Translations under genes and position numbers: made by a program
DNA from: Ochromonas danica
Lineage: Eukaryota; Sar; Chrysophyceae; Chromulinales; Chromulinaceae
Assembly: GCA_015146655.1 (NCBI GenBank)
Contig: VKHL01000005.1
Span: 186,001-250,000 of the forward strand
Length of the DNA: 64,000 nt
Direction: 5' to 3'
Shown: positions 19,428-52,368 of the stretch, piece by piece
Numbering within the stretch: the stretch's first letter is position 1
How the letters are laid out: every line of letters begins with the position of its first letter
Notes under the pieces: model-generated
What the model saw: only the letters and a program-made list of their open reading frames with translations
Told to the model about the DNA's origin: nothing
Databases searched by the model: none

Positions 19428-21530
19428 CTAATTTCCTTCACGCACATGTGCATTGACCTCTAGAGTAGAATAGACTATCTCTACAACTTCTTTAATCGTC
19501 ATCAATATCGGATCAACTACAATCTCACGTATCCATTTATCTAACAAGAACATTCGTTCATTCCGAACATTATCATCAACTCCTCCTGCCATCCAAAGAC
19601 TTATTCCACTTGATGGAAAAGGAGAAATGATTGTTGTAAGATATTCAAAACGTTGTACCACCTGATAGACTGCTTTAAAACTATGGAAACGAAGATTCAC
19701 TTGCCAGGATTCAACCTTATCACCAAAGAGATTAGAATATCCTATCGAAGTCACATAACCTGTATGATAATCTAATCCTTGTTCATCTGGTAGCTTTGGT
19801 AACCAACTACCAATACGAACCATAAGACGAGGTTTCCAGAGTGCATGTAATGAAGCTGTAGGATCATTATGAAGAAGAGTAACAACTTCCTTATGTATAA
19901 AACTCATTGCAGTTGTAAGATCATCTTTTCCTCGTTCTAAAGCACTTTCAGCAGCTATCTGACATACTCCCCACTTCATTAACCTATAATAACCAAATAA
20001 CCAACCAAACATGTACTGTTAAGTCAAACAACAAGATGAAGAAGAGGAATGGTAGAAGTACTTACTGGAGTAGTTGTGGAGAAAGATTACGCAATGCTAA
20101 GCTAATATCAATAGCTGGTTTAGAATGATGGCTACCAGCCCAAGATCTTTGACGAGAAGGAGGCTGTGCTGCCTGTAGCATACCAGAAGAAGAACCTTTG
20201 CTAGGAGGAGGAACAGGTGGAGCAACTGGACGGTTGCCGTTCTTGTTGTTATTATTCCCTCCACCACGTTGAAGCTCTAATAGCATAGATGATTTACGCC
20301 GTGTTGGTCCTCCATCAGGATAGCCTTGACTATTGGTATGCATTACTTGAGGTTGAGTAGGCGAAGGCCCTAGAGTAGCAGTAGTCTGTGTTGAATTGGC
20401 CGTTAGTGGTGCTGCTGGAGATCTTCGTCGAGCATGTAGTTCTTGTAGAATTGAAGAACATGATGCATTAGACGAAGAAGCAGTAGTTGTAGTAGTCGAG
20501 GCTGGTAGGGAATTGCTGCTGCTTGGCTTTTGTGCCATTTCTTGCTTTGACTCTGCAAAAGGATTGAAACTCCTTCTTCCTGGTTGGACATTATCTCTCT
20601 GCCTCACAGTACTACTCGTCTCCATCATATGCTTTGCTTCTTCTCGGCCATTATCATGTGCAGCTTCGAAAGGATTCGAAGAGTTCAATACAGGAGCACT
20701 CCGTGGTGCCACAGCAGGTGATGAACGAGAAGGACGAGCTGGTCCTGCATGACCATTACCATTACCATTACCAACACGTGGAGCAGGTGAAGTAGCAGTC
20801 CTGTTACTGGTACTTGTTGTTGTTGGCGGAGGAGAAGCAGCAGCACTCTGACCACCACCAGCACCAGCAGATGATGGCGCCACATTATTGTCAAAGGGAT
20901 TCGATGAAGCTGTGGTAGTAGCCGTCACATGAATGACTCCTTGTTGATTGTCTTCTTCCTGGCCATGTTCCCAAGGTGTAGCATGAACAGTAGCAGGAGG
21001 TGAAGCACCAGCAGTAGTCGTCGTCATTGGCACTTCCACGGCCACGGGCAGAGCGGGAGAAGCAGACCGTGCAGCAGCAGCCGGGACAACAGCCTCTCCC
21101 TCTCCCTCTCCCTCTGTCTCATTGCTATTGCCAGCATCTTCTTCTTCTCCTCCTCCTTCTTCTTGTTGGTGTTCCACCTGTCTCTCATCTAGCTCTTCTT
21201 GTTCAGAAGCTGGGATGGTAGAGGGAGGCAAACTATGAATCTCTGGCGGAGCGGATGGTTGGATTACAACTTCTTCATGATGACTCTCTAGACTCTCTCT
21301 TTCTCCTACAGGATGATGCCAAGAAGTCTCACCCGTCTCATCGTTATAGAAATACTGTGTTCCAGGGAAAAAGGAAAAATTAGCACATGATGATGATAAT
21401 GCTGGGACTGTAGGAAAAGGAAAGGAAATCAGATCATTCATTCACTGACCTCTTCGCCATCATCCGTGAAATAGCGATACCATGGCAAAGGCAAGCCTTC
21501 ATCTTGCTTGTCTCTCTCAACCTCAGTCAT
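19428..21530 (-). CDS. WW-domain protein with low-complexity middle and novel C-terminal domain
   Basis: Three exons, 21530-21450, 21354-20066 and 19983-19428, give 641 residues. The first intron splits the WW domain; joining it restores LPLPWYRYFTDDGEE plus YFYNDETGETSWHHPV, with Trp17 and Trp39 22 residues apart and a proline after, a complete WW domain. WW domains bind Pro-rich peptides. The middle (about 60-440) is Ser/Thr/Ala/Pro/Asn rich and probably disordered. It contains three SNPF-type motifs (SNPFDN, SNPFEA, FNPFAE), resembling NPF peptides that bind EH domains in endocytic adaptors. The C-terminal 190 residues are a folded-looking domain (WKPRLMVRIGSWLPKLP and following) that I do not recognise. 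A role in membrane traffic is a guess from the NPF motifs. Confidence 0.8.
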
Positions 21531-22406: not shown

Positions 22407-25400
22407 TTATAAAAAGGACTGACGCAATTGTCGCTCCAAACAAATGGTTCGAAGAGAATCTAAAGCTGGGCGTTGCAAAGTTGAGCCTGTGAAGGTGACG
22501 TCTGCATCTGTTAACTCTACATTGGAAGAGAAGAAAGAGAAAGAAGGTGCACGAGACTGGGTCTTACTCAACTCCTTCATTGTGATGATCTCTGTTGCTT
22601 TGGGTGTTGCGGACGCTGACCCCATCTTAATGGATGGGGCAGAAGCAACAGTGCTATCATTACTTGAACTGTTGGCATCCCACATGGAGGAGACAGGAAG
22701 AGCAGGAAGAAGTTCAGCAATGATTCCTCCATAGCCATGACCACGCAGATAGACAATAAGCTCTTGAACGAAGCGACGATTTCGAGTTGATATGATATCT
22801 TTCTCAGAAATCACCTTGTTGTTGCTATTCTTTTCCTTCACACTATTCCATCGACCACTGCGATGGCTGTGACTGCTCGAGTTTGTTATAGTCGCGGATT
22901 TAGAACCTGTTGTTCCTGGAGCTTGATAAGAAGAAAGATTGCTGTCGATTAGAACACAATCAACTAAGAAGCTGGAAGAAGGGGTCATCATTAAATCTGT
23001 TGACCAAGTTGGCATGTCACGAGTGAGATAATGGATTCGTCGTTCCCATCGTGCAGTGGAACAGAAAGTGGTGGACATCGCTCGAACAAGAGATGATCGA
23101 TCTTGATAATCACAAGAAAACACAATCATCGACATCCACTTGTAATCCTCTCGAAGAGAAGGAAGAGGGTAATAGAATCCAAAGTCTTTCATCGTGGACA
23201 AGGAAGGATAGCAGCAATATCCACTTCGCCGCCCATTGGGCAGTTCTTGTGCCTCGACTGACCATCGCATAGAGCGATGCAAATGAGACTGGAAATGCTG
23301 GGTCATCTTATGACTCAAGGGTGTCAACCGATAAGGCACGGCGATTCGTTGATAGTATCGATAAGATGACAACATATTTTCCGACAAGCCATGTCCTTCT
23401 CCTCCTTTCCATCTACCTGATCGATAGCAATCTGCTTCCCCACTCATGGCGGATGGAGGCAAGAACGATTTCAAGAATCGTGCGTGAAGATGTCTGCGAT
23501 AAGCTTCTTCATTCATCACATGGCTGCTGCTCTTGTACAAGCCATCTTCCTCCTCGTCATTCTCATTTTCATCGCTGAGAGGAAAAGAGTAACAGGTTTC
23601 CAGCACATGCAGATGAAGCATCCTCACATCTGTGAACCTCAATTCTTCTTGACCTGGCATGGGTTCAATCAGAACCGCAATCTCTTCACCCAAGGATTTC
23701 GACAGCTTCTGCTGCTGATGGGAGGTTGAAGGAAATGAAGAAGAGGAACTGGAATTTCTTAAAGACGTGGTCTCAGAAGAGCTGCTCCTGGTGGCAGAAG
23801 ACGAAGAAGAGGAAGAAGTGTGGAAGATTCGCCTCAAAGCTGATCTACAGGCATTGGAGAGCCATGTTTTCACCACAGCAACATCGCATCGAATAAAATA
23901 CAGACTTGGATGGATCAACACTGTCAGATGAATCATAGGCGAATCAGATGCTGGGCTTCCCACCAACGGATAGAAAATCCTCTCCGTCACATGATAAACA
24001 ACCTCAGGGAAGAGACACATGTCCATCTTTTCCATTACAATCGACATCAATTGACCTTGTTGTTGAGGGACAGGAGGTTGTGTGGAGAGAGACAGAGTTG
24101 GAGTATGCTTCATCATGATATCTGACGTGATCTTCAAATCCAGTTGAATGTCTTGGAATTGCTGATATTGAGCAACGATCTTCTTCGTCATCCTCTTTAT
24201 GATCGATGTGCTCATGAACGAAAACCTTCCTCCCATTTCCTCTTCGCCAGCGTCTGGGTCACCAGGTTGGAAACGACGAAGATGCTTGTGCTGTTGATGC
24301 GCATGATCCACCTGTTCTTGCTCCTGCTGCTGTTGTTTGGTTACTATGGCCATCATGTCTTCCACCATCACTTCCTGAACAGTCAGTAAATGCTGTAGAG
24401 GTTTGCATGAAAGTTCGCAGCACACCACCATGGCCCGATCCAAAGTATCTCTAGTCAAAATGAACCTCTTCAATGCTAGAAACTCTCTCCTTACTAACGC
24501 CTCGGAGAGGATTAACTGAGCAGTTATCGTGATGAAAATGGTCAAGAGGAGGAGGGTATACATACTGGCAGCTTGTCGGGCAATCAATGGACCAATTATC
24601 ATATTCACCACACGTATTATAATCAAGAAAGTAACAACGTGCGGAATAATTGCGTGCGGCCAAGAGATGAGCTCAAACAAGATCTTTATACGAACTGGAT
24701 AAGCTAAAGACATAAATAGCAATCCACGTCCAGTATAAATGCCGAATCTACGATACAAGAAGGACTTTAAGTTGTTGCTGTCATCGTCATCACTGAATTG
24801 AAAAGGCACAGAAGTGAAGTATAGTCGACTCCTCCCAGACAAGCTACCATACAAGGCCACAGCGCCTGCCAAAAAGCTTATGACAAGCAACATATCAAAG
24901 ATTCGATATGCCCATAAAAAACCTCGACCCCAATGAGTCAACATGCCCACTGGAAATCGCCTCACCAAAAATATCAGCAAAGGAAATAAGTTGAGAGTTA
25001 TAGCAGCGAATGGGAGAGTCCCACAAAGCCAATACGTCACATAGATCAAAGCATTCGCAAGGATGGTCAAGTCAAAGGAAGTGGTTTTATGGAAGAGCTT
25101 CGTCGTGGGGTTGAGTCGCAGCCATCGTAAGTAATTCAGTTGACTATTCGAATCAATGGAAGGCGGCCAGCAGTTTGACAAAAGAGTCATAGCTATTTGT
25201 TTCAAGGTAGACAAGAATGTAGTCATTGTCCAGAAACGAGCCCAATAACAACCAACCTCACCGCCAAAATCACTCACATGATCCAATGAAGTGTAATTGT
25301 TATTAGAGCTACTGCTAAGATGACGGCTCTTAACATCACCAGAATATTTGTTAGTGTCGCCGCTACGATTACTGTGGCTCAAGTCCTCGATATCACCTCT

Positions 25401-27806
25401 CACTAATCCACCATAAGCATCCGTCATAGGCATGGAAAGGTCTTTTCCATCATGGCATACTTCCAATAACCATGTCTTTAACGCTTTCATCTCTGGCAGA
25501 GGGCAAGGCCATGACAAGGCATAGTTAAAGATCAATTGTTCCTGTTCATCCAAATAAGAGAGTCGCTCAGAGAGTAAGATAATCAATCGCCTATAGCCCT
25601 TCTCTCTCAAGACACGACATGCTGCATAGGACGTTACTATTACTATCGATCGAATTTGGAGATCTGCCATGTTAAGCTGATGGAAAATGGAGACGTTACG
25701 GTGGGAATAACCCCCTACAGAGGATGGACGATCACCAGGAAGAACTAAAAGATAGTCCAGGATGTCTTCTATTGAAGGCTGCAAATAATGATTGTCCACA
25801 TAAACGCATAGTTGATCTACTAGCCATTCACTAAACATGGCTTCAGGAAAGGACGAGAGCGAAGAAGATCTCATCAGATCATTTGCCTCCTTCACCTTTT
25901 CTTCTAACAACATGCGAACAGCTGCTGTGGCAGTAACTGACGGATGACCTGGAGGAGGATGCGATTGTGATCGAGTTGGGCCCGACGGCGGCTGCTGCTT
26001 GGGACGAATTGCTCGCGAGGACGAGGTTCGAATTGAATTTTTACTTTTCTCTTTCGTGTGTCGCTTAGGTTTATAAGGAATGGTAAACTCAATCTTCACT
26101 CCCTCTTCCTCCGTGGAAGTCAATGTGAAACTCTGCTTCAAAGTCCGCAGCACCTTCTCAACCATCATAAGATACGATTGATACAAATATAAGGCAGTGG
26201 GAGAAGCAGCAGAAACACCCTCAACATTAGCACGACAATGTCGAGCTTGAAGAACCACCTTGAGGAAACGAGCAGGTTCATCTTGCGATCGCGGCGATGC
26301 TTCAATCGGCCCTTCTTCGAAGAAGAGTCGAAATGGGAGCCTGCGAGTATCCGACTGGCTATTATCATCACTCCCTTCACCTCCGATTGCATTTACCTCT
26401 TCTTCCACAGTCATCATTGTCAGGAGAGCAGAGAACAAATAAAACAACAGAATGGACCAGCACCTCCTATCTGCGTGGAGTCGACTATGCGGTTGCAGAG
26501 GACTATGAAAGATCAAGTCCACACGGCTCTTCAGTGAAGTCGAGAGGCCATGACAAGCCGTCAAATGGGCCAAGACAGTCTCAACAAGATCCGAAAGATC
26601 GATCACATCACCATATTGAATACGAAATCGTCCTTCTTCTATCCTCAGAAAGACCAAGATATGGTCTATCAAATAATTCAAAGCGTCCAATCTAGGCACT
26701 ATACTGGCATCACTCACAGCACCACTACTATCACTATCCATTGCACTGCTCATTCTTCGTATGCGATTATACTTCTGAACCACGTAACCCATGGAATGCA
26801 AAGGAACCTTTAAGTCACTGCACAATAAATTTACTAGTCCTTTCTTCTCTTCAGCTGCTTCTTTGATCTTCTTTACCATCTCATAGGAAGCATGAATAGA
26901 TGCTTCTAAGCGACGGGACGGAATAATACCAACAAACAGATATGAGCTGGCAATTAAAATGGTCACACAAAATAGTAAAGGTACCGCAGTGCTATAATCG
27001 TCTGAATGGACACCGATACGATCATAACACGTTAGAACTCGCATCACTTGGGAAGTGGCCTCAATCAAGCAGATGAAATATATCCATGGAGTCGCAATAG
27101 GTAAAACAGCGAAAGCAAACATCTGATACATCTCGAAAATAATCAAGAAGGAGGCAAATCGAAAAGAAGTATCTTTGGGGGATAGAATGTCGTCCACAAT
27201 ACACACCTTATCATCCACTACCATATTGATCAAGAGAGCATGTAGCAAGACCAGTAGACGAGTTAACAACACACAGTTCCCCAGCCGTCTGATGCCATTG
27301 CAAATAGTTTCTTTGCCTTGCATCTTCTTTCCTCTCTTCCCCATGACACTTCCCAAGTCGCCGCTCCCCATATCAAAAACCCCATCCTCCAACACCTTGA
27401 GAATCAATCCACTATAGAAAATAAGAGTCAGTACTGTGAGTACTACCCAGCTACCCACTTCTAGCATAATGCCATACTTTGAAGAGAACAAAGGAGAGGA
27501 AAGACCAAAGGTTTTCAATGGAGTCATGATTAGAAAGACAGCTTGGTAACACAGGTTAAATAGAAAGGCGATGAATGTGATATATTTTGTCTTGTGGATA
27601 TAGTAATATCGGAAATCATGATCATCCAAAGAATTTTCTTCTTCTTGAGATGTTTGTAACCATTTCAGGCAATCGTTGAAGGAAGAAAGAATGACATTTA
27701 GCCAGTGATGATCAACTTTCTTTGTTTGCTCAATTTCAACATAGGATGACCAAAATACATCCTCTTCTTCATATAAAGGCCATATAATTCTCTCATTCCT
27801 GATCAT
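22407..27806 (-). CDS. Giant membrane protein: two fused, degenerate hybrid-histidine-kinase modules
   Basis: A single exon of 1799 residues. The first half has about six hydrophobic segments (75-130, 175-195, 220-255, 272-295), then a juxtamembrane helix and a dimerisation-like helix with LVNLLCSDLKVPLHSMGYVV (324-343). This aligns with the histidine-kinase H box, but the phospho-accepting His is Ser. An ATPase-like region ends in KIEFTIPYKPKR, comparable to FWFEIPYRPD of the neighbouring kinases, yet the glycine-rich G boxes are gone. A receiver-like segment follows (RSIVIVTSYAACRVLREKGY). The second half repeats the plan: further membrane segments, then DRAMVVCCELSCKPLQHL with no His, and a C-terminal receiver-like domain with VDCVLIDSNLSSYQ that keeps one Asp. 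It therefore looks like a pseudokinase built from two copies of the family represented by 32368-37706. Function unknown; a regulatory partner of the active kinases is plausible. Confidence 0.72.
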   Translation of the reverse strand: MIRNERIIWPLYEEEDVFWSSYVEIEQTKKVDHHWLNVILSSFNDCLKWLQTSQEEENSLDDHDFRYYYIHKTKYITFIAFLFNLCYQAVFLIMTPLKTFGLSSPLFSSKYGIMLEVGSWVVLTVLTLIFYSGLILKVLEDGVFDMGSGDLGSVMGKRGKKMQGKETICNGIRRLGNCVLLTRLLVLLHALLINMVVDDKVCIVDDILSPKDTSFRFASFLIIFEMYQMFAFAVLPIATPWIYFICLIEATSQVMRVLTCYDRIGVHSDDYSTAVPLLFCVTILIASSYLFVGIIPSRRLEASIHASYEMVKKIKEAAEEKKGLVNLLCSDLKVPLHSMGYVVQKYNRIRRMSSAMDSDSSGAVSDASIVPRLDALNYLIDHILVFLRIEEGRFRIQYGDVIDLSDLVETVLAHLTACHGLSTSLKSRVDLIFHSPLQPHSRLHADRRCWSILLFYLFSALLTMMTVEEEVNAIGGEGSDDNSQSDTRRLPFRLFFEEGPIEASPRSQDEPARFLKVVLQARHCRANVEGVSAASPTALYLYQSYLMMVEKVLRTLKQSFTLTSTEEEGVKIEFTIPYKPKRHTKEKSKNSIRTSSSRAIRPKQQPPSGPTRSQSHPPPGHPSVTATAAVRMLLEEKVKEANDLMRSSSLSSFPEAMFSEWLVDQLCVYVDNHYLQPSIEDILDYLLVLPGDRPSSVGGYSHRNVSIFHQLNMADLQIRSIVIVTSYAACRVLREKGYRRLIILLSERLSYLDEQEQLIFNYALSWPCPLPEMKALKTWLLEVCHDGKDLSMPMTDAYGGLVRGDIEDLSHSNRSGDTNKYSGDVKSRHLSSSSNNNYTSLDHVSDFGGEVGCYWARFWTMTTFLSTLKQIAMTLLSNCWPPSIDSNSQLNYLRWLRLNPTTKLFHKTTSFDLTILANALIYVTYWLCGTLPFAAITLNLFPLLIFLVRRFPVGMLTHWGRGFLWAYRIFDMLLVISFLAGAVALYGSLSGRSRLYFTSVPFQFSDDDDSNNLKSFLYRRFGIYTGRGLLFMSLAYPVRIKILFELISWPHAIIPHVVTFLIIIRVVNMIIGPLIARQAASMYTLLLLTIFITITAQLILSEALVRREFLALKRFILTRDTLDRAMVVCCELSCKPLQHLLTVQEVMVEDMMAIVTKQQQQEQEQVDHAHQQHKHLRRFQPGDPDAGEEEMGGRFSFMSTSIIKRMTKKIVAQYQQFQDIQLDLKITSDIMMKHTPTLSLSTQPPVPQQQGQLMSIVMEKMDMCLFPEVVYHVTERIFYPLVGSPASDSPMIHLTVLIHPSLYFIRCDVAVVKTWLSNACRSALRRIFHTSSSSSSSATRSSSSETTSLRNSSSSSSFPSTSHQQQKLSKSLGEEIAVLIEPMPGQEELRFTDVRMLHLHVLETCYSFPLSDENENDEEEDGLYKSSSHVMNEEAYRRHLHARFLKSFLPPSAMSGEADCYRSGRWKGGEGHGLSENMLSSYRYYQRIAVPYRLTPLSHKMTQHFQSHLHRSMRWSVEAQELPNGRRSGYCCYPSLSTMKDFGFYYPLPSLREDYKWMSMIVFSCDYQDRSSLVRAMSTTFCSTARWERRIHYLTRDMPTWSTDLMMTPSSSFLVDCVLIDSNLSSYQAPGTTGSKSATITNSSSHSHRSGRWNSVKEKNSNNKVISEKDIISTRNRRFVQELIVYLRGHGYGGIIAELLPALPVSSMWDANSSSNDSTVASAPSIKMGSASATPKATEIITMKELSKTQSRAPSFSFFSSNVELTDADVTFTGSTLQRPALDSLRTICLERQLRQSFL

Positions 27807-29242: not shown

Positions 29243-29484
29243 GACGACGATCGCCTTCTGGGTGTCCATGGTGCGACATTGGAGTATTCGATCCGAGCTC
29301 GACCACAAGAGATGGTAACAAACGTCTATGAGGAACAAGCGCATTGATTTGATCTATTAACAAATTTCTTGTTAATGGACCAAATCAATCGCTTCCTGCT
29401 CAAAGAGGTTTTTATCAACTCTTGTTCGAGCTCGGATCGATTATTCCAATGTCGCACCAGGACACACAGGAGGCGATCCTCGCC
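29243..29484. repeat. 242-nt near-perfect hairpin with 5-nt loop
   Basis: The left arm (29243-29363) and right arm (29369-29484) are reverse complements with roughly 80% identity and few indels. The tip is fully paired (ATTAACAA with TTGTTAAT) around loop ATTTC at 29364-29368. Long exact stretches include GGTGCGACATTGGA and CGATCCGAGCTCGA. Such a foldback could be a hairpin RNA (small-RNA precursor-like) or a foldback/MITE-type element. No target-site duplication was identified at its ends. Confidence 0.85.
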
Positions 29485-29805: not shown

Positions 29806-31281
29806 TCAGTGAAGAATACGCTTGGCAATAGCACGCGGCGATCCCTTTGGATCAACTGACACGCAAAGCCTTTTGAAAGGATGGACTTCTTCCTCTGTAA
29901 CAGAAGAATCTTCCACCCTTCCTTTTCTCTTTCCATGACAGACTGTCAATTCATCACAGCCCGCCAATTTACCCAAATCAATCCAAATTTCTTGGTTGAT
30001 CGGTAAAAGAGAACCACAAGAACTTAACTTGATAGATGATTTAATACCATCCTCCAGTAGAGTTTCACCTTCATCATCCATTCCAAGATCATCGAATAGA
30101 CGATCATCAAGATCAAAGGAGAACGCGTCATCTCTGGAAGCATTCGACTCTACAGAGGTATTGTCGTCTTCCAATTGAATCTTGTTCTCAATTGGATGGT
30201 TAGTCCATTTACTCAAATCATCTTGATTGGCATTGACCGGCCAGAAAGAATCATAGCAGCCGGACTCGACAAATTTATTACTGTCCTCGAATTGAGCTTC
30301 ATGTTCATCGTCGATTTCAAGATCATTGAATAGATCCAAATCTAGTTCCCCTTTTGAAGCCACAGAGCTGCCACACTCGATAGAAGCGTGACTATCCAGC
30401 TCCAACAGAACTTCCCAACACATGCCCCAATCCTTTTCAGTAGGGACATTGCACTTCTCGCAAATAATTTGTTCTTTGTCTTGATACCCACAAACTGAAG
30501 GCAAGAGGTTCAACTTCTCTTCGGCCTTCGGAGGAGATTCAGAGCAAAGGTCAACAAGGCTATCACACAGCTTCAGGACGCGGTTAACACCTCCACCATG
30601 AGAACAACCACCACAGCCGATCAGACAACTCGCGGCAGCAACCAAAGCCACTTTGTTGCCCGACTTCTTGACAAAAGGAATGCATAAGAATCTTGTCAGT
30701 ACAAGATAAAAGCACAACAACATGCTCTTTTCCTCAGCTTTCAAATCCTTCAATGTGGACGCATAGTTCTCCTTCAATAACTTCGCACATGCCTCCCAAT
30801 CATTCTTGTGTTCCAACAGGATGTCGACTGATCTTGACGGTAGAATGTCGTTAGTATGTCGGGTATAATAAAGAAGGTAGAGAACGACTAGAACCACTTC
30901 TCTGACTCGTCGAGGATCCAAATCACTGCAATGCACCTGTAGTCGAGCGAACACTGTTGTGCCGCTCTTGCATAAGTCGGTCAGCTTGGGCAGTTCTATT
31001 TTCTTCTTCCTGCTCTTCTTCTCACTTCTTGCCACAGCAGGAAAGAAAAACTCATCGATCATTTGAAGAGTCTCCAGGCGAAGTTCTTGGTTTTTATGCA
31101 TGGATAACTTTGTAAACGCTTGGCAAGGATTTGCCAGCGACAAAGCAGGGGAGAGAGGACCAGTCGAAGGACCCGGAGGAGATGATCTTTCGATGGCACA
31201 ATCGTCATTTTGAAAGCGATTCAAAATTTTAACAAGTTGCAAATCCACTTTTTCATAGAAAGCCTTCTTCTCGATATTCAT
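29806..31281 (-). CDS. Unrecognised protein with duplicated acidic repeat and basic C-terminus
   Basis: A single exon of 491 residues; no family recognised. Residues 1-250 are helical and Leu/Cys rich, with a basic patch EKKSRKKK (87-94) and a glycine/cysteine cluster CLIGCGGCSHGGG (219-231). A CEKCNVP motif (274-280) may be half of a metal site. Residues 312-360 and 387-440 are an internal duplication: DLDLFNDLEIDDE matches LDDRLFDDLGMDDE, and further on YDSFWPVNANQDDLSKW matches CGSLLPINQEIWIDLGKL. Alternating acidic and bulky hydrophobic residues resemble transcriptional activation domains. The tail is basic (GKRKGR, HPFKRL) and could be a nuclear localisation signal. A nuclear regulatory role is inference only. 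The start follows a GA-rich leader (31285-31320). Confidence 0.7.
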   Translation of the reverse strand: MNIEKKAFYEKVDLQLVKILNRFQNDDCAIERSSPPGPSTGPLSPALSLANPCQAFTKLSMHKNQELRLETLQMIDEFFFPAVARSEKKSRKKKIELPKLTDLCKSGTTVFARLQVHCSDLDPRRVREVVLVVLYLLYYTRHTNDILPSRSVDILLEHKNDWEACAKLLKENYASTLKDLKAEEKSMLLCFYLVLTRFLCIPFVKKSGNKVALVAAASCLIGCGGCSHGGGVNRVLKLCDSLVDLCSESPPKAEEKLNLLPSVCGYQDKEQIICEKCNVPTEKDWGMCWEVLLELDSHASIECGSSVASKGELDLDLFNDLEIDDEHEAQFEDSNKFVESGCYDSFWPVNANQDDLSKWTNHPIENKIQLEDDNTSVESNASRDDAFSFDLDDRLFDDLGMDDEGETLLEDGIKSSIKLSSCGSLLPINQEIWIDLGKLAGCDELTVCHGKRKGRVEDSSVTEEEVHPFKRLCVSVDPKGSPRAIAKRILH

Positions 31282-32367: not shown

Positions 32368-34940
32368 CTACGGTAGTATTTTCTTATTCTTATCATTAAC
32401 AACCTCCTGAGCAGTAGGTTGGGATGATGGAGGACTGAGTTGAACTTGTCGAATGTTTTGATATGTCTTATAGAATGTATTCAGTGAGAAAGGTTTTGAT
32501 ATAAATGCATCCACTCCCATTTTATATGCTTGGTCTGTTGTTTCGCTATCAGAATTTGCTGACACACCTATTATGAGATTATGTGGATGTACTCTCATTG
32601 TTACATCATCGCGCGTCGTTGTTTGATGATGCAAACCTTGTTCTAATAGTCTAATTCGTTTTGTAGCCTCCAACCCATCCATAACCGGCATTTGTAAATC
32701 CATCAAAATAACATCAAACAGTTCAGCGCGAATAGAAACTGAACATTCAGAGGTATTGCTACCATTGCAGCTCTCATATAAGTTCTTCATATGATTTTCG
32801 CATAATTTGAGAGCTTCTGCCCCATTAGTCGCTGTGAAAACCTCGTGATTATGCCGCCGAAGCATCATCGAGATCAACTTTAAGATCGCCGGAGAGTCAT
32901 CAACCAGCAAGATTTTCATCGGTTCCAATATTCCAAATGTCGATAAAGAAGCAATTCTGATGGGAACAGGTCTACCAGCATTATCTTCTTCCTTCGAATC
33001 CGGAAATAAATCCTTCCTTCTCACCATAGCGCACGCTCCGCAAGCTGCGCCATCTTTTAACAATCCAACATTAGAGGGAGATGAAGATGGGCTTTCAACC
33101 GCCTGATAATCAGGTCGATAAGGAATCTCGAACCAAAACAGCGACCCTTCTTCCCCATCTCGTCTTCGCTGCACTCCACATCCGCCCTCCAGCGCCTCCA
33201 AACGCTTTGCCAAACTAAACAGTCCCAACCCCGTGCCTCCAGCTAGACGCTGGGCCTGCTTGAAAGGACTGAATAACGTCGACATCACATCTTCAGACAG
33301 CCCGATTCCATGATCTTCGATCTCCACGCGCAGATACAAATTGCGATTCATTATATTCTGCAAATGCAAAGACGGATAAATGCGACTATCTTTCTCGTCC
33401 TCCAATGAGGCCTGTGACAACGTGTTATCCAAACATGGACTATTCCGCTGCTGTTGCGGGGACTGGTCATTAGGAAGTTTCAGCTCCGCACTCATTGAGC
33501 GGCTGTTGATTCGAGCCTGGAACTTGCGTTCATTCTCCACCAATACCACACTGATCGTCACTTCACCTTCGTTCGAGTATTTCACAGCGTTGCTCAGCAG
33601 ACAAAGAACATTCTCTTGCAACCATTGCTTGTCCGTGATGATGTGAGAGCAGATCTCTTTGCTAATGGGCTGCAACACTATCGACACACGCTGCTGAATG
33701 TCTTTCATGCAATTCAAAGGCAAAGACAATGTGTCCATGAGGTCAATGGTCTCGAACTTCGGTACCAGCTTCACTCCTTTTGAAGCCTTGGTATAATCAA
33801 TACAGCGATTGATGGTCATGAGCATGAAGGAGTTGGTATTGCGCATGTTCGTAATACACGTCGTGATGCAGTTCATCGCGTCATTTACATCCGATGGAGA
33901 AGTGGTACCTTCAGTGGTTAGTTTGTGATATCCATCGGTTATTATTTGTCCGATAAATTCCACTCCCGCGGTGAAAGAAGCCAATGGCTAAAGTATTCGA
34001 AATATCCAAGTTATCAAACATTCGTTCGCAGATGCAATGAGTAGACATGAATTCTTACCGTTTTTAGATCGTGTGCTACATTAGCTATCATATGACGCAT
34101 CTCTTCTGCATTAGCTTCGTCTGCAGCTTTCTCTCGTTCTTTCAAGATTTCTTGCAACTTCAAATGTGTGAAAAACAGAAAGTAATTCTGTCTTCTTGCT
34201 TCCAGCATAATAAATATACTACTGATCATATAATAGAAAACAAATAATATCGAGTTAAAAGCTTCATCATAAATTAAAGAGAAGGCGATAACAGCCATAG
34301 AGAATAACCATAAAAATATGGCAAATTGGACATGAGCTGCTTTTACAGTAATTAGATAAAGTAAAGGAATCATCATTAAAATCATTGTTGTTTCAACCAC
34401 TATCATATGTTTAGACTCAAGATTATTGCAATTCCATGCTTGTGTAAAAAAGGACGTTTTGCATTCTCCTATAATGGTCCGGACAACATGACGGTAACTA
34501 ACAATGGCTTCTAGTAGAAAGTAAATAAGCATTTGGAACCTATGTAAGAAATCTCTCAAACTTGCAGAGAGATGTACTTCTTGACCTTTAAGTACTTGTT
34601 GAATATGGAGATAGACCTTCCACACAGTGATATTGATGGTCAAAAGGAGTACGAGAATGATAATACAACTGCTTAGCTCAAAGGCAGAAGAACTGAAAGC
34701 AAGGTTTGTTCCCATCACAATAATATATGGGATAGTGAATATAGAGATAAAGATGTTAGCAGAGAATAAAGCAGATAAAGTTTGATGATGATTGTTGAAA
34801 GTTTGGAAAGCATGGCGTGTAGAATGATCTCTTAATTGAAAGAAATAATCAACATTATCACTAACTTTTCGATCAATTTCTAATGCAGAAGTAAAACCAA
34901 TATCTTCAAGAATAACATCATCTTTGTTTAAAGTGGTCAT
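32368..34940 (-). CDS. Membrane hybrid histidine kinase A
   Basis: Two exons, 34940-34059 and 33987-32368, give 833 residues. Six to seven hydrophobic segments fill residues about 70-255, followed by a charged helix (EILKEREKAADEANAEEM) and the H box NVAHDLKT|PLASF with His290; the intron falls exactly inside the H box. The ATPase domain has the N box (CLLSNAVKYS), G1 (EDHGIGLS) and G2 (GGTGLGLFSLAKRL). The receiver domain (about 649-790) has ILLVDDSP, the phospho-acceptor Asp723 in VILMDLQMPVMDG and the Lys in ISKPFS. All catalytic residues are present, so it should autophosphorylate and pass phosphate to its own receiver. The signal sensed is unknown. It is divergent from kinase B and shares a 695-bp identical block with it. 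Confidence 0.9.
33107..33801 (-). repeat. 695-bp perfect inverted repeat, arm A
   Basis: Base-for-base comparison with 36348-37042 shows no difference across 695 bp; mismatches begin immediately at both edges. It covers the dimerisation/ATPase coding region of kinase A. The intervening 2.5 kb contains the diverged remainder of both genes. Confidence 0.93.
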
Positions 34941-35244
34941 TGGATGGGAAATTGATATAGCTGTCGAAAATAAATTGCATCACATCATAATTGTTTTTGC
35001 AACGGAATTTAAAATCCATGGAATACTTCTTACTGTTGTCCATGGAATGCACTCACATCCATGTGCAGAGCTGGGAGCCTGTGAAACCATGATTTTGGTC
35101 GTTTAAAGTCGTAATGTTTAGTAATCTGACCACGTCCCCATCATCTCTCCGTCTCTGCTGTGAAAATGAGAAAAGATCCAGTGAGGTGTTGGAAGAGATA
35201 GAACCGAATAGCATTGATCAAAGAATAATTCTCTTCTTTTCCCC
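34941..35244. promoter_or_regulatory. Divergent promoter of kinases A and B, with two CCATGGAAT half-palindromes
   Basis: ATCCATGGAAT at 35014-35024 and TCCATGGAAT at 35039-35048, 25 bp apart, are one-mismatch forms of the TTCCATGGAA palindrome. They lie between the divergent kinase starts, so a shared control element is plausible; this is inference. Confidence 0.4.
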
Positions 35245-37706
35245 ATGATGATACGTGTTCCTTTAGCTATCTTTAATGCTGATTTTAGAAAGAATTTTTT
35301 GTTTTCTACTGACCTATTACCTTCTTATGATCACTTTGTAAATGAACACCAAACTTTATCTTCTTTCCTCATTGTTAATATCCTAATTACCTTACTTTCT
35401 ATACCTCATATTGTCATGTGTTGTCTTCTTATCGCCTATTCTGATAGTACCACCTATGATCGGATTAGTTCCATTTTTGGGTTGGTATTTGTAATTGCCA
35501 TAAACATTGTTGAGTGGCGAGTTCTACTCAAACACATTCATGATTTAAACGAAGATAATATTAGAATCTCTGAATCTTCTAAACTTTTATTGTTGCAATT
35601 CTTTGGGAGATGGCTCTGCTTTGTGAATATCTTAAGTAATCTGCATCTTGTAGTACAAACTATTGTTGGCTCTTGTTCATCCAATAGTCGCTCTTTAAAT
35701 TGGAATTGTAATGCTTTTTCAAGTTCTCAAGGAATTGTCATGGATAGTAGCATTATTGTGATGATTTTCCCTCTTGTATTAGCGATTGCGTTTCCAACTG
35801 CGAAGCATTTGCGCTATATTATCGTCAATTGGATGATCTCTGTTGTCTCTTTGCTTTTCTGTCTGATTTATGCAAGTGCAATCAATTCAGTACTTTTCGT
35901 TGTTTATTATATTATAGGAAGTCTCTTTATTTTGTTCCTAATCCATCTTCATCATTATTCTATTTTTAATCAATATCGTCGATTGCAAGAGATATTGAGA
36001 GAAAGAGAGAAAGCAGCTGATGAAGCTAATGCTCAGGAACTACGACATATGATTGCCAATGTTGCTCACGATTTAAAAACGGTAAGCTGCTTCTTTATTC
36101 ACCCATGACTGACGTTTGTAACATGGTTGTCTTGTCTCAGCCGCTATCGTCCTTCCTGTCAGGAATCGAATGTGTCGATCATGTAATAGCCGAACTAACC
36201 ACTAAACCTATCACCATAAAGGATGGAGATAGTGTGCGCCAACCAGTTAGTAGTGTGAACCTTCAAGAAAGTTTGACAACTATTTTCCACTGTATCACCA
36301 ACATGCGCAATACCAACTCTTTCATGCTCATGACCATCAATCGCTGCATTGATTATACCAAGGCTTCAAAAGGAGTGAAGCTGGTACCGAAGTTCGAGAC
36401 CATTGACCTCATGGACACATTGTCTTTGCCTTTGAATTGCATGAAAGACATTCAGCAGCGTGTGTCGATAGTGTTGCAGCCCATTAGCAAAGAGATCTGC
36501 TCTCACATCATCACGGACAAGCAATGGTTGCAAGAGAATGTTCTTTGTCTGCTGAGCAACGCTGTGAAATACTCGAACGAAGGTGAAGTGACGATCAGTG
36601 TGGTATTGGTGGAGAATGAACGCAAGTTCCAGGCTCGAATCAACAGCCGCTCAATGAGTGCGGAGCTGAAACTTCCTAATGACCAGTCCCCGCAACAGCA
36701 GCGGAATAGTCCATGTTTGGATAACACGTTGTCACAGGCCTCATTGGAGGACGAGAAAGATAGTCGCATTTATCCGTCTTTGCATTTGCAGAATATAATG
36801 AATCGCAATTTGTATCTGCGCGTGGAGATCGAAGATCATGGAATCGGGCTGTCTGAAGATGTGATGTCGACGTTATTCAGTCCTTTCAAGCAGGCCCAGC
36901 GTCTAGCTGGAGGCACGGGGTTGGGACTGTTTAGTTTGGCAAAGCGTTTGGAGGCGCTGGAGGGCGGATGTGGAGTGCAGCGAAGACGAGATGGGGAAGA
37001 AGGGTCGCTGTTTTGGTTCGAGATTCCTTATCGACCTGATTACACTATTAAGGTTGTTGGGTCGCTGGAGTCGATTGGAGATATGGGGTCTCCTCTTTTT
37101 CGGAGTGCTTCCGATCAGAGCCTCTTTTCTGAATATTTCGAAAGTTCGAAGTGTTCATCTGCAAAAGTTGATGTACATACGTTTTTTGGAGCGGAGAGCT
37201 TGGAGTTAGAACATCCTTTGGCAACTTACAATCCATTGTCTGGAGTTTCGGTGGACAGCACCCCTTCGGTGAAACTAGATCCTGCCACTCCTCCTTCAAG
37301 TCTACATGTATTGGTTGTTGATGATTCGCCTGCCATATTGAAAATGACATCCCTGATGCTACGTCGTCACAATCATACTATCTCGACTGCCACAAATGGT
37401 GCGGAAGCTGTTCAAACAGTCAGTGAGCATTGGGAGGATGATAGTGGTTATGGAGGTTACTATGATGTTATTTTGATGGATTTGCAAATGCCAGTTATGG
37501 ATGGTTTGGAGGCCACAAGACGTTTAAGAAAAATGGAGGAGCGTTACACTTCTAAAGGCAAGAAATTGCTTATTATTGGCATGTCGGCTAACTCTGACAA
37601 CGAGACGGCCAATACCGCATTGAAAGTTGGCGTCGATGCCTTCATGGCCAAACCTTTTTCTTTGGAAACGTTTTACAAAACTTACCGTAGTCTAGTGGAG
37701 ACGTGA
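35245..37706 (+). CDS. Membrane hybrid histidine kinase B
   Basis: Two exons, 35245-36081 and 36141-37706, give 800 residues. The plan is that of kinase A: six to seven hydrophobic segments, a charged helix (REREKAADEANAQEL), the H box NVAHDLKT|PLSSF with His275 and an intron at the identical place, then the ATPase domain and a receiver (from about 669: LHVLVVDDSP, Asp726 in VILMDLQMPVMDG, Lys in MAKPFS). Outside the shared 695-bp block the two proteins are clearly diverged, including membrane domain and linker, which suggests different inputs with a common kinase core. The N-terminus is about 15 residues shorter than A; an upstream ATG is not available in frame. Confidence 0.9.
36348..37042 (+). 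repeat. 695-bp perfect inverted repeat, arm B
   Basis: Exact reverse complement of 33107-33801. Third-codon positions are identical too, whereas flanking paralogous sequence differs strongly, which marks recent homogenisation rather than recent whole-gene duplication. Confidence 0.93.
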
Positions 37707-38610: not shown

Positions 38611-40505
38611 ATGACGAATATACAACTAATTATATTTATGCTTTACTTGTTTATTTTCAACTGTTTTTTAGCTATAGTTAAAAGTAGTACCAATCCTGTC
38701 CCTCCATTGTGTATTGACTCGGAAGATAGCTTGGGTTATGTAAATGGCAATCTCTCTGCTTCACAAACATTTTATAATTGTTTGGCAAATGTTTCTGATG
38801 GTGGACTATTACCCAGCTATTATAACGGTGGTATCTATGGACCTGTAGCATTTTCCACCGGTATTACGTTAAATAATCTCATCGAGGTAAGGCTATGTTA
38901 TGCTCTAAACTATTATCTTCCTTCGTATTGATGATATATCCCGTGTTTCTTTCATAGATCGACGAAGTGCATGGTACGGCAACCATAGCATTCAGTATTG
39001 GTTGCTCTTGGGTCGACAAACGCTTTGCGATGCCTTTGTTCTGGAGCAAATATCATGCCTCTTCCATCCAACTCACTTTTATTGCAACGAACCAATCGAT
39101 TGTATTATTCAAACCACAGCTTCGCTACATAGATGCCAAGGATCTAGTATGTGTTGATGAAGATCTGACACTTTCCAGCAAGAACATGTTTCTCTATAAA
39201 GCTGCATGCACTATTACAATGATTCAGACGTCATTGAAATTCAACAATTATCCTAATGATTATCAAAGTTTACATCTTCGTGTTTACGCTTATCCATATG
39301 ATAATACTACCGCAGTCATGACCATTTATAATGGTGTTTCTTTCTCTACAGATGAAGAAGGAAAACCAACATTCCCACAAAATCAACTGTGGAGCTATAA
39401 AGGTAGTTATGCTAGTGTTTATAACTCAGGGGGCTCTTCATCTTCTACTAGTATCGCTACCTTTGTGATAAATGTCCAACGTAAAAGCGCCGGTATAGTG
39501 TTGAGATTAGTCGTACCTGTGTTGTTTCTTGTGGTCTTGTCCACATTAACATTTTGGACAGTCCCTGATCAGCGTGTGTCAATCACCATCACCATTCTAT
39601 TGTCAGTATCGGCCTTATATATTGTTATTATCAATAACATTCCCATGGTCGGATATCTTACGACGGTGGATCGCTTCATTTTCGCGGTAAGTAGTATAGC
39701 AGATGAATTGCTCAGTGAATCGCTCACATTGCTGAATTTGCTTCTCGTTTGGTGTGTATAGATGTTCCTTGTTTTGGTGCTGGTGGTAGTTGTTCATCAG
39801 ATTTATTCTACTCTGCAAGAAAAGCAAGATCGCTGGCCTTTGCGTCTAGTTTATCTTCGCATATTGGAGTGCGCTGGTCGCACTGTTGTTCTGCCTTTTG
39901 TCACTGCTTATTTCGTTTTCGCGATGCCTTCTGCTTTGGGGGATTCACCTTCCCACGAAGCACTCCGAAAGGCAATCTTCGCAATCGTGGTCGCTGGCTC
40001 AGGCATCATCTTCCTTAGAGAGCTGACAGGTTTGTATGCAGCTTGGATCCGTGCTTTAACTTTGCTCGTTGCAAAAATCAATGCGAAAGATACTACGGTT
40101 AGTGATTTATCTTGGATCGAATGCTTTATTGTAAATATTTGGAAGTTTGGAGTGATCTCCTTCTCTCCTCAATTCTTGATTGTGGTTCTGCAACATCGGG
40201 AAGAGATGGATTTGGGCTTTAAACAGCGGTTAAGCTTGCGGCAAGAGAGTATCATGAGAGAGTTGAGGAAGAGTCCTTCGAAAAGTAGTACAAGGCATGC
40301 TGAAGATGGCACGAGAAAACGCTTTTGGGTGGAATCCACCGAAGCGGGTGATATCGAAGCATCCATGTTGCCTCCTGAAGAAGAGAAAATTCTCGAGGAG
40401 CTCAATCAAGAGATGGGTGTTGTGCATTGGATGCCAAGTAAAATGAACTATATCGAGAAACAAAGTGATGAAGAAAAGAGTGGAAAAGATGACGCCGCTG
40501 ATTAG
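38611..40505 (+). CDS. Pentameric ligand-gated ion channel, GLIC-like, with extra C-terminal membrane segments
   Basis: Three exons, 38611-38886, 38958-39686 and 39762-40505, give 582 residues. A signal peptide (about 4-22) precedes an extracellular beta-rich domain with EIDEVHGTATIAF, CSWVDKRF, and FNNYPNDYQSLHLRVY, the region equivalent to the Cys loop. The paired cysteines of animal Cys-loop receptors are absent, as in prokaryotic channels. M1 is VLRLVVPVLFLVVLSTLTFW. M2 (PDQRVSITITILLSVSALYI) aligns without gaps to GLIC: Asp at -2', Ser 2', Thr 6', Leu 9', Ala 13', Ile 16'. M3 starts at NNIPMVGYLTTVDRFIFAMF. An M4-like helix (RTVVLPFVTAYFVFAM) is followed by two further hydrophobic segments and a charged tail of about 110 residues, which is not usual. 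The acidic -2' residue suggests cation selectivity, by analogy. The ligand is unknown. Confidence 0.85.
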
Positions 40506-41165
40506 AAGCGATCTGATGCAAATTCTTCGTGCTATAGGAAGGATGTTTATGGTATTGTCTTACCTGCTGTATTGTATGTGTGGTGTGATCCGTTATACCT
40601 TATGATGTAAAGTGGGAGCATGTGTTGCTTAGTCGCCAGGGGGATCCCTGCTTAATTGATTCGATTGGCTGAACTTGTTCGTTGTCCTGATCGCAGTCAG
40701 TGAGTGCGAAAGCATTTACTTTCTTGTAGTATGTGTGTGTTGGTGCCGAAGATGTTACTGATCATAGATGTGTGTACACGCTTGTTCTAGCCTCTTATTG
40801 TTTGGAGAGAGCGCCAAATCATATACTCAATTTTTCTTTTTTTTAATGTGACTGCATATCGTCAGCTGTGCTGACAAACTGTTTTCGGCAAAAGGGCGTT
40901 GTTGTCCACTTTCCAAAAAACAGAATTAAGAAGAAAACGCGCTTCTGAGGTGTAGTTAGTGCTGTTGTTCCGTTGCCTTGCCGGACCAGCAGCTCTGCAT
41001 CAAACACGTCGGGAGTTCCATCCCACCTCACCTCCGCTTTCTTATCTCTACGTCCAACACATCGGGAGAAGGAATGGAGGAAAAGGGATGAGCTCATGAA
41101 AGGACCTGCACACAATTCAATTCCTTAAGGGCAATAGGATTTGATTCTATTTTTAAGAGAAATCC
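40506..41165. promoter_or_regulatory. Upstream region of ABCG copy 1, with AACACNTCGGGA repeats
   Basis: About 660 bp with no convincing ORF. Two copies of a motif close to CAACACATCGGGA occur at 41002-41013 (AACACGTCGGGA) and 41055-41067 (CAACACATCGGGA), each followed by a purine-rich stretch. Related copies occur upstream of ABCG copy 2. Confidence 0.45.
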
Positions 41166-44100
41166 ATGACGAGCTCCAGTAATTCGTATTCAGTCTTGGC
41201 AGATAACAAGATCCGATCAGAACTCGCTCTGCAGGTTGTTGACCAGGAGCATCGCATCGAAGAGTTAGAAGAAGCCTTGCATGAGCATGGCATTGAGCTT
41301 CCTGAAGCCAAAGAGAAACCCCAACCTGCTGCTATTGATGCTGTTGGAGTGTCGTCTATCTTGGAAGATGGGAGCATTGATGAGTTGCGCCGTCACCTGG
41401 AGCAACGTGTGCACTTACACAACCTCCCAGACACTGATATTGAGTTCCACAATCTGAACTTCTCCACCACAGTCGATGTCAATCGCTCCATCTACACAGC
41501 AGGTTCCTTCCTCTCTTCTTTGGTTTGCTGGTGGCAGTGGTTCCCACCCCAGCGCAAGATTGACATTCTCGCAGATGCTACGGGTCGAATCCCATCGAGG
41601 AGAATGACTCTTCTGATTGGTCCTCCAGGTTCCGGCAAGTCAGGTAGGTTCAACTCTTCTTCTCCTTTCCTCGATGATACTAACCGTGCTATGGCGTCTT
41701 CTCATGCCTCATGCCTCCTGTAGTCTTGCTGAAGGCGTTGGCAGGCAAGCTTCACTCTTCAGGCAAAGCGAAGTACTCTGGAGAGGTCTATTTTGAAGGG
41801 GACAGTATCCGTAGTGGTAAATTTGTTCCCTGCAAAGTGGCCGACTATATCGAACAAGGAGATACCCATGAAGCCATCCTCTCTGTGGACGAGACATTCA
41901 AGTTTGCATGGGAATGCACAACCGGTGGTCACCATGATTATGGTGTTGCTCGCGATGAGGCAGCAGCGGAGATCCTGAGGAAAGACGATGCGGTGTATGC
42001 GATGGTGCAGAACACGACCGCTATGCTGGGTCTGAAGGGTTGCAAGGATACTTGTGTGGGAGATGCAATGATTCGAGGTATCTCAGGTGGGCAGAAGCGA
42101 AGAGTGACGATCGGAGAGATTATGGTGTGTCCTCGTCCCGTGAAGCTGATGGACTGCATCTCGAACGGTCTGGATACGGCGACAGCTTTTGATATCATCA
42201 ACTCTGTGCGCGCCTTCACCCATACTCTTGGTTTGACCACAGTGACCTCTCTGTTACAGCCTCCTCCCGATGTGTACAATCTCTTTGACGACATCATGGT
42301 GTTGAGCGAAGGCCGAATCGTCTATCATGGACCCCGAGATCAGGTGATGGGTTACTTCAATAACCTGGGCTATGAATGTCCCGAGTTGGTGGATGAAGCC
42401 GACTTCTTACAAGAGCTTCCCACTCCCGAAGGACGCAAGTACCGCATGAAGCCGTCTGTTCCTCACACCACCTCAGCTCTTGCAGCAGCCTGGAAGGCTT
42501 CTGAAATCTACAAGCAGATGCTGGCGGAGATGAGATATCCCAGTCTGGATGATGCTCGCGCGTTGTCGAAAGGCAACCCCAAGCAGTGGAATAAGGAATT
42601 CAGAGAGGTGTTTGCAGGCAGCTTGTCTTTCTACTTCCAACAATGTGTGAGAAGACAGTTCCAGATTATCTATCGCAATTCAGCGTTTGTTGGCGCACGC
42701 ATTGGGCAGAGTCTTCTCATTGGTGGTATCACAGGGTCTCTGTTCAATAATATCGCTACCAAGGACACATCGACAATGAATGGCTTTCTCTTCAACAGTG
42801 TTCTCTTCACAGCCATCTCCAATTTCTCTACCTTACCTGTCCTCTATGACCAGAGAAATGTCTACTACAAGCAGAAAGACGCCCTTTTCTTTCCCACGAC
42901 CGCTTTTACGTTTGCTCAGATGCTTGCGTTTCTACCTCTGCAGGTTATTGAAGCTATCCTCTATGTCGCAATTGTGTATTGGTCAGCAGATCTCTCAGCT
43001 CAAGAGAATGGTTCTCGTTTCCTCACCAATGTACTGATCTCGATCGCCTTTGGAGTATGTTTCAGTCAGATCTTCCGTTTGATTGCAGCATTGATGCCCA
43101 CGATGAATGCTGCATTGCCCGTTTGTGGTGTCGCCCTCACACTTTGCGTGTTGTTCAGCGGCTTCATCCAGCCGAAGTCTGTCATCTCGGATGGTTGGAT
43201 CTGGTTCTATTGGATCAATCCCTTGGCGTGGGCCTTGAAAGCTGTCACAGTGAATGAATATGCTTCTTCGAAGTATGATTTCATGACCTGCGTGAATGCG
43301 GCCTGCACAGAGCATGAACGCTTCGGAGACTACACCTTGAAGCAATATGGCAATCCTACCAATGAGCGTAACATCTGGTATTCCTTCGCGGTCTTGATCG
43401 CCGAGTTTCTGTTCTTCTTCGTCCTCACCGATTTGTCAATGACCTATGTGCGTTCCATTCCCACGCCTCCTCCACCTGTGCGCATCGATCCTGAGGATGA
43501 GGAGCGCTATGATGTGGAGAGCGCTGAGGCATTGTCTGCACCTGTGAAGGTGGAGCAGTTGCCCTTTGATCCTCTGGTGTTCTCTTTCAAGAACATTGGC
43601 TATCGGGTCACGTTGCCTAACAAGGAGGAGATCGATCTGCTGCAAGATGTGAATGGGTTCTTCACTCCAGGGTCGGTAACAGCTCTGATGGGCTCATCGG
43701 GAGCAGGCAAGACGACGTTGTTGGATGTGTTGGCAGGACGCAAGAACACGGGTGTAGTGACGGGCGAGATGTTCATCAATGGTGTGCCAAAGGTGGATGC
43801 TTACTTTCGCAAGGTGACAGCTTATGTGGAGCAGTTCGACATGTTGTCGACGAAGAGCACAACGAAGGAGTCGATCGCCTTCTCTGCAGCCTTGAGGCTT
43901 CGTGGGAATGTCACGAGGTATTATTACCACCACTAATAGTTTTGTTTATATCACAGCTCAACCGGGTGATTTGCGGTGTTGATATGACATTTGTTGATAG
44001 TGCGGAACGAGCGAAGTGGGTAGATTCCGTGATCAAGATGATGGACCTTGGACCTTTGGCCGATGAAATGGTGAGTCTCACGTCTGTGGGTGTTGTAGTC

Positions 44101-51876: not shown

Positions 51877-52368
51877 TCTATGGAGATTGTATATTTTGCA
51901 CGATTTGTGTTGTCATGTTGTTTTCCTAATTAGCTAGCTATTCAATAACATAGTATAGTGTTGGATAGCATTTTTTCCCTTGTAACAGTAGTCTTCACCA
52001 TTCTTGAAGATTAGACCTGCTTTGTCTTTCCATTGTTCTTGCAAACCTGGAAATATTTGATGAATCTGCTGGTGTGTCACTACCTACAGCAGTAGACCAC
52101 CAACAAAGTCGTGATAGTAACAACCAAATTGCGGAATGAAAACACTTTCATCTTATCCTCATTGATGTATATGTGTGTCATTAATCCGGATTGTGGTACT
52201 CTGTGTGCTGCGAATTGCACAACTCTGACTGCAGTTTATTAGACTCTGATTTGATTGTACAACCGCAGGTAAGTAAATACATAACTATGCTAAGCATTAT
52301 ACTAATTCTCTCTACAGCCATTTTCATCTTTTGTGGTTGTTGATGAAAAGAATAGCTTAGACTTCACC
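51877..52368. other. 3' flank of ABCG copy 2 and 5' leader of PRMT5 with a probable intron
   Basis: A canonical 49-nt intron is visible at 52269-52317 (CAG|GTAAGT ... CTACAG|). Its upstream exon has no in-frame ATG before a stop, so the intron probably lies in the PRMT5 5' UTR. Confidence 0.45.

Follow-up and report, generated by a model that had tools for sequence, protein, structure and literature searches.

What kind of protein is encoded by an uninterrupted frame of 1799 codons in the genome of the chrysophyte Ochromonas danica? The frame lies in a 64,000-nucleotide stretch of DNA, hereafter the window (C5:186001-250000, contig VKHL01000005.1, of a 31.19 Mb assembly in 337 contigs). A preliminary description, made from the letters of the window, had read it as a histidine kinase plan of membrane domain, H box, ATPase-like domain and receiver-like domain, repeated twice with the phospho-His and the ATP-binding glycine boxes gone. 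Our analysis leads us to the view, to which we give a probability of about 0.6, that the gene belongs to a conserved family of tandem hybrid histidine-kinase-like membrane receptors in which catalysis has been lost.

The Frame and Its Parts

The frame runs from ATG to stop on the minus strand without interruption and occupies 22407-27806; the plus strand of the same interval contains many stops. The 1799-residue frame originally described is therefore borne out, with the addition of its strand, which had not been given. In the window copy, a plain hydropathy scan finds two membrane modules with 6 and 7 partly overlapping segments, as well as two weaker hydrophobic segments outside the modules, at residues 449-470 and 1294-1313; in some modules of other copies the same scan finds fewer segments, down to 3. 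The gene and its parts are as follows, with the evidence for each.

22407..27806, minus strand: putative tandem pseudo-histidine-kinase, complete 1799-aa frame (open frame; paralogues; conserved N-terminus and length)
26910..27584, minus strand: membrane module 1, residues 75-299 (hydropathy)
26799..26822, minus strand: degenerate H box CSDLKVPL, residues 329-336, with Ser330 where a kinase would have its phospho-His (alignment to the bacterial kinase profile)
26058..26873, minus strand: HisKA- and HATPase-like core 1, approximately residues 312-583 (223 aligned columns with the C5w reference; sliding-scan peak at 375-583)
26625..26645, minus strand: RIEEGRF, counterpart of the kinase 'KIEAGKL' at the end of DHp helix 2 (profile alignment)
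26064..26087, minus strand: FTIPYKPK, residues 574-581, last strand of ATPase-like domain 1 (profile alignment)
25458..25679, minus strand: receiver-like domain 1, core residues 710-783, LNMADLQ ... IILLSERL ... YALSWP (profile scans; family-wide conservation)
24486..25070, minus strand: membrane module 2, residues 913-1107, strongly diverged among paralogues (hydropathy; paralogue comparison)
24396..24422, minus strand: H-box-like peptide 2, CCELSCKPL, residues 1129-1137, with Glu at the His position by eye only (beyond the reach of the profile alignments)
23832..24011, minus strand: ATPase-like domain 2, N-terminal part, residues 1266-1325 (..IRCDVAVVKTWLSNACRSALR) (profile scans)
22407..22958, minus strand: putative truncated receiver-like tail 2, from CVLIDSNL to the C-terminus (doubtful; mixed profile results)

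A Family of Paralogues, Probably under Constraint

The window gene is not alone. A six-frame search of the assembly with the window protein gave 21 matching places and, combined with searches using two of the paralogues, identified at least eight near-complete copies in the 31 Mb genome, falling into four lineages. The family members outside the window gene are these.

C5, 174397-179856: inverted copy of the window gene, on the same contig, 90% identity
C210: near-complete copy
C95, 72.8 kb: near-complete copy C95b
C95, 38 kb: near-complete copy C95a
C175: near-complete copy
C219: near-complete copies C219a and C219b, in tandem
C95, 68745-69535 and 107927-108676: two truncated copies

The second truncated copy lies near a contig end, and the assembly may have cut it. 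The sequences of C210, C95b and C219b were read short of the gene ends, where the fetched stretches stopped. In the flanking sequence compared, the inverted duplication takes in the window gene together with some 50 bases upstream of it.

The other three lineages share 20-29% identity with the window copy across whole halves, and C95a is closer to C175 and C219 (45-48%). The family alignment begins at the N-terminal motif W..(Y/F).EE..FW and continues almost to the C-terminus, and the layout is common to seven further paralogues. The description of the gene as a single exon holds for the window copy but not for the family, as the C95a, C175, C219a and C219b genes each need one intron. No relatives were found in the viral contigs searched, nor relatives of the second half in the bacterial and archaeal genomes searched. 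A neighbour candidate on C212 (a 1840-aa frame, of which 1741 residues were read) was rejected as an ordinary single active hybrid kinase, with HDLRTP, DFGIGL and VDIQMP motifs. The assembly also holds 47 matches to the chlorophyll a/b-binding family, implying that the host is a photosynthetic alga.

All eight copies are long frames without stops outside inferred introns in the stretches read. Estimated by the Nei-Gojobori method, dN/dS is 0.40 for the window gene and its inverted copy, 0.30 for C210/C95b and 0.26 for C219a/C219b; the nearly identical pair C219a/C175 has a ratio of 1.36, calculated from 3.5 synonymous and 16.5 nonsynonymous changes, which are too few to use. Eight long frames in four lineages, taken with these ratios, look like working coding genes. 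The earlier suggestion that the frame is under selection as a protein is consistent with this: the protein appears constrained as a member of a family whose seven other members share its plan.

Likeness to Kinases

Ordinary searches did not find a kinase. In Pfam, the window protein and 14 rows of two family alignments (together covering six of the eight copies) gave a best E value of 0.045 and no kinase family, so that the curated domain models proposed earlier as a check do not recognise hybrid-kinase families here; a PDB sequence search with the window protein and two family profiles gave nothing better than E 1.1. HMMs of the genome's own active receivers (48 rows) and ATPase domains (41 rows), run against eight paralogues with 400 shuffled and 4 reversed decoys, missed the domains at the expected places, and the best receiver matches, of 4.7 bits in C210 and C95b, were misplaced. 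Three other approaches were set aside. Profile-profile comparison with the in-genome kinases was weak or out of register; alignment of the window protein to the active kinases encoded in the window had a wrong or doubtful register and was left unused for prediction; and single-sequence AlphaFold models of residues 301-832 (mean pLDDT 35.8) and 652-792 (43.7) were uninterpretable.

A likeness does emerge from profile-profile comparison with bacterial proteins. A motif filter reduced 80 bacterial hybrid-kinase loci to 59 kinase and 27 receiver segments, one locus being able to yield more than one segment, and the rest were dropped. These profile tests used the family copies that span more than 40% of a segment. 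With boundaries fixed from landmarks, and with 40 column shuffles for each of four reference lineages, core 1 aligned over 222-223 columns, reaching from the H box to the final ATPase strand, in three of the four references and over 132 columns in the fourth (z 4.2, 3.5, 3.0 and 2.5; 0, 0, 1 and 2 of 40 shuffles as high). Core 2 aligned over 54-62 columns around the N box in all four (z 3.9, 5.3, 3.9 and 4.0; 0 of 40 shuffles as high), and receiver 1 over 25-72 columns, in an uncertain register (z 2.8, 3.3, 3.4 and 3.3; 1 of 40 shuffles as high in the first). Control pairings with the wrong domain were flat (z -0.3, 0.9 and -1.1). The significance of core 1 depends on where it is cut: with another boundary and C95a as reference, z was only 2.0 and 6 of 100 shuffles scored as high. 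Against the genome's own ATPase profile, again with C95a as reference, core 1 gave z -0.5.

We also scanned the whole protein with sliding windows, which need no boundaries, using the window copy, C210 and C219a as references and reversed windows as control. In the window copy the kinase profile peaked at 375-583 (34.3) and 1266-1325 (27.7), where reversed windows reached at most 19.9; the receiver profile peaked at 710-783 and inside it (20.4-20.9, against 14.2). The best kinase windows of C210 and C219a lay at the matching place in the second half and at the end of ATPase-like domain 1 (51-53 columns), with an additional 88 kinase columns at 365-459 in C219a; their receiver peaks also fell at the matching place, by a slim margin in C219a (20.8 against a reversed 19.9). 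Together, these comparisons support a degenerate kinase-receiver-kinase layout for the predicted protein. Of the twice-repeated kinase-receiver plan first proposed, this order of domains is retained, but the second receiver is doubtful.

The evidence on that second receiver is mixed. With fixed boundaries its z values were 1.2, 3.5, 1.1 and 0.8 over the four references, and a further test, which omitted two near-duplicate or short rows, gave 0.6-1.7. Wide boundaries gave z 2.9, on a different stretch near the C-terminus, and the C210 scan placed a second-rank receiver peak at 1648-1662 (17.3, against a reversed maximum of 14.2). The peptide VDCVLIDSNL had been taken to carry the only receiver-like Asp that remains. 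Aligned with receivers of the same genome, it does fall on the phospho-Asp strand (z 1.4), but with bacterial receivers it falls, at a low score, on the acidic pair of strand 1; moreover, an invariant Asp in receiver 1 (LNMAD) may occupy the phospho site, in a register that is uncertain.

Loss of Catalytic Residues

Both H-box peptides singled out in the preliminary description are present, and neither contains a His. All 8 copies have Ser or Lys at the phospho-His position of the first half. In the second half, the residue placed by eye in the H-box-like peptide is Glu, Lys or Arg, and again none of the 8 copies has His. By comparison, the His is kept in 16 of the 16 active-kinase membrane exons read (two from the window and 14 fetched, of 70 places).

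The FTIPYKPK landmark does persist, and in the alignments it corresponds to the final strand of the ATPase domain of kinases. The glycine boxes, reported as gone, are absent from the window copy in that it has no GGTGLGL-type box and reads VLETCYSF in the G1-like block, but the C175 and C219 copies keep VYDTGL, which by eye resembles the canonical DTG of the G1 box. In ATPase-like domain 2, the four reference lineages have Ser, Tyr, Ala or Asp aligned with the Mg-binding Asn of kinases, and in half 1 an Asn stands one residue off the N-box Asn in some lineages. A block N[AVM]CR.A is conserved in the family. We considered LSNACR as the retained Mg-binding Asn of core 2 and rejected it, as the alignment places that Asn at the preceding NL.

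How Alike Are the Two Halves?

If the protein repeats one plan, its halves might resemble each other, and the preliminary description had named dissimilar halves as evidence against its reading. The cytosolic halves show no measurable similarity (z 0.5 and -1.0), and membrane modules 1 and 2 are weakly similar (z 2.7 and 4.9). Comparison of whole halves gave 44.7 against a shuffle maximum of 24.9, a contrast to be read with the fact that shuffling disrupts hydrophobic runs. The mutual similarity expected of the halves is thus not found in the cytosolic parts and is slight in the membrane parts. A single duplication of a hybrid kinase is thus a possible origin of the two halves.

A Mosaic of Identical and Diverged Tracts

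Three paralogue pairs, the window gene with its inverted copy (the C5 pair), C210/C95b and C219a/C219b, are mosaics in which identical tracts of 1.0-2.6 kb lie beside a strongly diverged membrane module 2. Ignoring indels, the longest identical codon runs in the three pairs are 1021, 1775 and 2554 nt, lengths reached in 0 of 2000 shuffles. In the diverged blocks dS runs from about 0.4 to saturation, and where it exceeds 0.4, dN does not rise above roughly one third of dS; a boundary block in C210, residues 125-184, has dN 0.157 and dS 0.14. Membrane module 2 has 55 of 176, 86 of 186 and 65 of 66 third-position differences in the three pairs, while contributing 195 of 1786, 199 of 1714 and 197 of 1572 aligned codons.

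Divergence is not confined to that module, nor shared by the other. Membrane module 1 is identical in the C219 pair, shows no excess in the C5 pair (0.071 against 0.077 elsewhere), and in C210/C95b is diverged in its first part only; a further diverged block of the C5 pair, at 782-842 (dS 0.73), lies in neither module. When the diverged blocks were rotated along the gene, 69 of 1785, 227 of 1713 and 131 of 1571 rotations placed them in membrane modules to as extreme a degree, which is weak for each pair. Window counts for module 2 are stronger (58 of 1592, 17 of 1516 and 62 of 1376), for a module picked after the data had been seen. Membrane modules as favoured sites of divergence are weakly supported by these comparisons. 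We read the pattern as gene conversion that may homogenise much of the cytosolic part and leave membrane module 2 distinct; a membrane segment acquired by exchange with another paralogue would give the same appearance.

The Active Kinases of the Window

Two canonical kinases lie in the same window.

32368..34940, minus strand: canonical membrane hybrid histidine kinase A, two exons, with the intron inferred at the H box (Pfam HATPase_c and Response_reg; HDLKT)
35245..37706, plus strand: kinase B, also a canonical membrane hybrid histidine kinase, arranged head to head with A (motifs H, N, G1, G2, Asp and Lys all present)

This pair forms a similar mosaic. In the kinase core, 752 bp are 99.5% identical (33107-33858 and 36291-37042), and the membrane exons have diverged to dS 2.7 with the receivers saturated; the 752-bp tract is likely, from this pattern, to be a conversion tract. 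The membrane exon of the active kinases has at least 70 matching places in the genome, on C5 and 45 other contigs. None of these 70 places, a lower bound, is on C95, C175, C210 or C219, the contigs of the other lineages. The pseudokinase had been placed beside active relatives, which is true of the window (kinases at 32368-37706) but is not a general arrangement. In the 16 active-kinase exons read, the frame continues past the H box into the apparent start of the intron.

Interpretation

The reading that we favour would give each chain a pair of polytopic membrane modules. Behind each module would come a kinase core in degenerate form, and behind the first core a receiver, likewise degenerate. 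The dead cores may retain the helical-bundle and ATPase-like folds as docking surfaces, and the single chain could behave as a receptor dimer joined in advance. The membrane modules would sense inputs, and the cytosolic part would relay a change of shape by binding a partner rather than by transferring phosphate. That partner would most probably be an active hybrid kinase, a phosphotransfer protein or a receiver; the matches to the active kinases' membrane exon imply that candidate partners exist, and that there are many. A role as scaffold or sensor, which the preliminary description had also suggested, is what we infer from this arrangement.

How firmly should the kinase ancestry be held? 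The lack of any significant Pfam or PDB match, the failure of the in-genome kinase profiles at the expected places and the dissimilarity between the membrane modules of the family and of the active kinases would all suit an orphan family of tandem polytopic membrane proteins, in which short kinase-like motifs arose by chance or convergence. We think this unlikely, as kinase and receiver peaks fall in the expected places and order in all three references scanned, one receiver peak narrowly, and core 1 aligns over 222-223 columns in three of four references. If the ancestry is accepted, one core might still be active, or bind nucleotide, through unusual residues; the DTG-like VYDTGL seen by eye in the C175 and C219 copies, the conserved N[AVM]CR.A block and the half-1 Asn one residue from its N-box position in some lineages point that way. 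Residual activity of this kind nevertheless seems improbable, given the VLETCYSF of the window copy, the substitutions at the Mg-binding Asn of half 2 in four reference lineages, the missing second glycine box and two H-box peptides without a His.

The copies could also be decaying, held open by gene conversion and with no present function. Long identical tracts among paralogues, two truncated copies on C95 and the dN/dS of 1.36 for C219a/C175, on few changes, would be expected in that case; eight long-frame copies free of stops outside inferred introns in the stretches read, dN/dS of 0.26-0.40 in three pairs and the 20-29% identity to the window copy retained across lineages would not, and we consider decay very improbable.

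The favoured reading, a tandem receptor with catalysis lost, can be extended more tentatively. Two sensors and two dead cores might be fused as an obligate, built-in dimer, with conversion keeping most of the chain uniform across paralogues while a sensor module, chiefly the second, is kept different, as in the window's active pair; the family would then form a repertoire of sensors on a shared output chassis. This extension is possible rather than probable, and is made less so because one pair shows no divergence in membrane module 1 and another shows little.

If the favoured reading is correct, the family would show how far a retained histidine kinase can drift: two non-catalytic cores conserved in several lineages and missed by the standard models tried. 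It would also provide a system for asking what the kinase fold does when it transfers no phosphate. The mosaic is a testable case of selection maintaining receptor diversity against gene conversion.

Relation to Known Systems

Subfamily II plant ethylene receptors are eukaryotic membrane receptors with degenerate histidine-kinase cores that signal by docking. They have one membrane module and one core, and their kinase domains are recognisable. The bacterial pseudokinase DivL likewise still scores as a histidine kinase, unlike the algal family.

DivL, a pseudo-histidine kinase of Caulobacter, has been co-opted to sense a phosphorylated regulator (PMC4211667). It resembles our proposed receptor in having a kinase core without kinase activity that binds another signalling protein, and differs in being bacterial, with a single core and PAS domains (PMC4211667). 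Tandem kinases are known as well. In a survey of two-component proteins, the HK1RR1HK2RR2 type is rare (90 proteins in 60 species), tandem types are relatively abundant in fungi, and HK domains lacking the His were discarded when such domains were identified (PMC4558063). A 2016 review of fungal kinases confines the dual HK group to Basidiomycota and mentions clades or species whose kinases number as many as 15 (PMC4965123). Like the algal family, these HK1RR1HK2RR2 and basidiomycete dual kinases carry two kinase cores and one or more receivers in a chain (PMC4558063, PMC4965123); unlike them, the algal family has its alignable catalytic residues replaced, a membrane module for each half and a photosynthetic algal host.

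Nearer at hand, hybrid kinases A and B share with the family a membrane module, kinase core and receiver and the mosaic of identical core and diverged membrane part. They differ in their intact catalytic motifs, one unit per chain, the intron at the H box and membrane modules of no measurable similarity, with scores no higher than those of reversed sequences. Searches of an open-access library (titles and the beginnings of abstracts, with a minority of subscription journals covered) showed, among the matches listed, neither a tandem pseudo-histidine kinase in an alga nor a description of histidine-kinase mosaics formed by conversion. Both components, the tandem hybrid kinase and the pseudo-histidine kinase, have been described, and their combination, which the family of the window gene and its seven paralogues would appear to represent, was not found in the literature searched.

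Other Features of the Window

Several other features accompany these genes. An ABC2-type transporter gene is duplicated in tandem (41044-45802 and 47140-51880; 97.4% identity over 4774 bp), and a frame at 38967-39758 has a weak match, below the Pfam cut-off, to the membrane region of neurotransmitter-gated ion channels (E 0.00038). Two frames rich in low-complexity sequence lie at 20062-21441 and 3131-6736, the first with a weak partial match to a WW domain, also below the Pfam cut-off. Finally, an imperfect palindromic (self-inverted) repeat, 82% identical over 243 bp, occupies 29245-29482, about 0.3 kb past the 3' end of the frame at 29806-31281.
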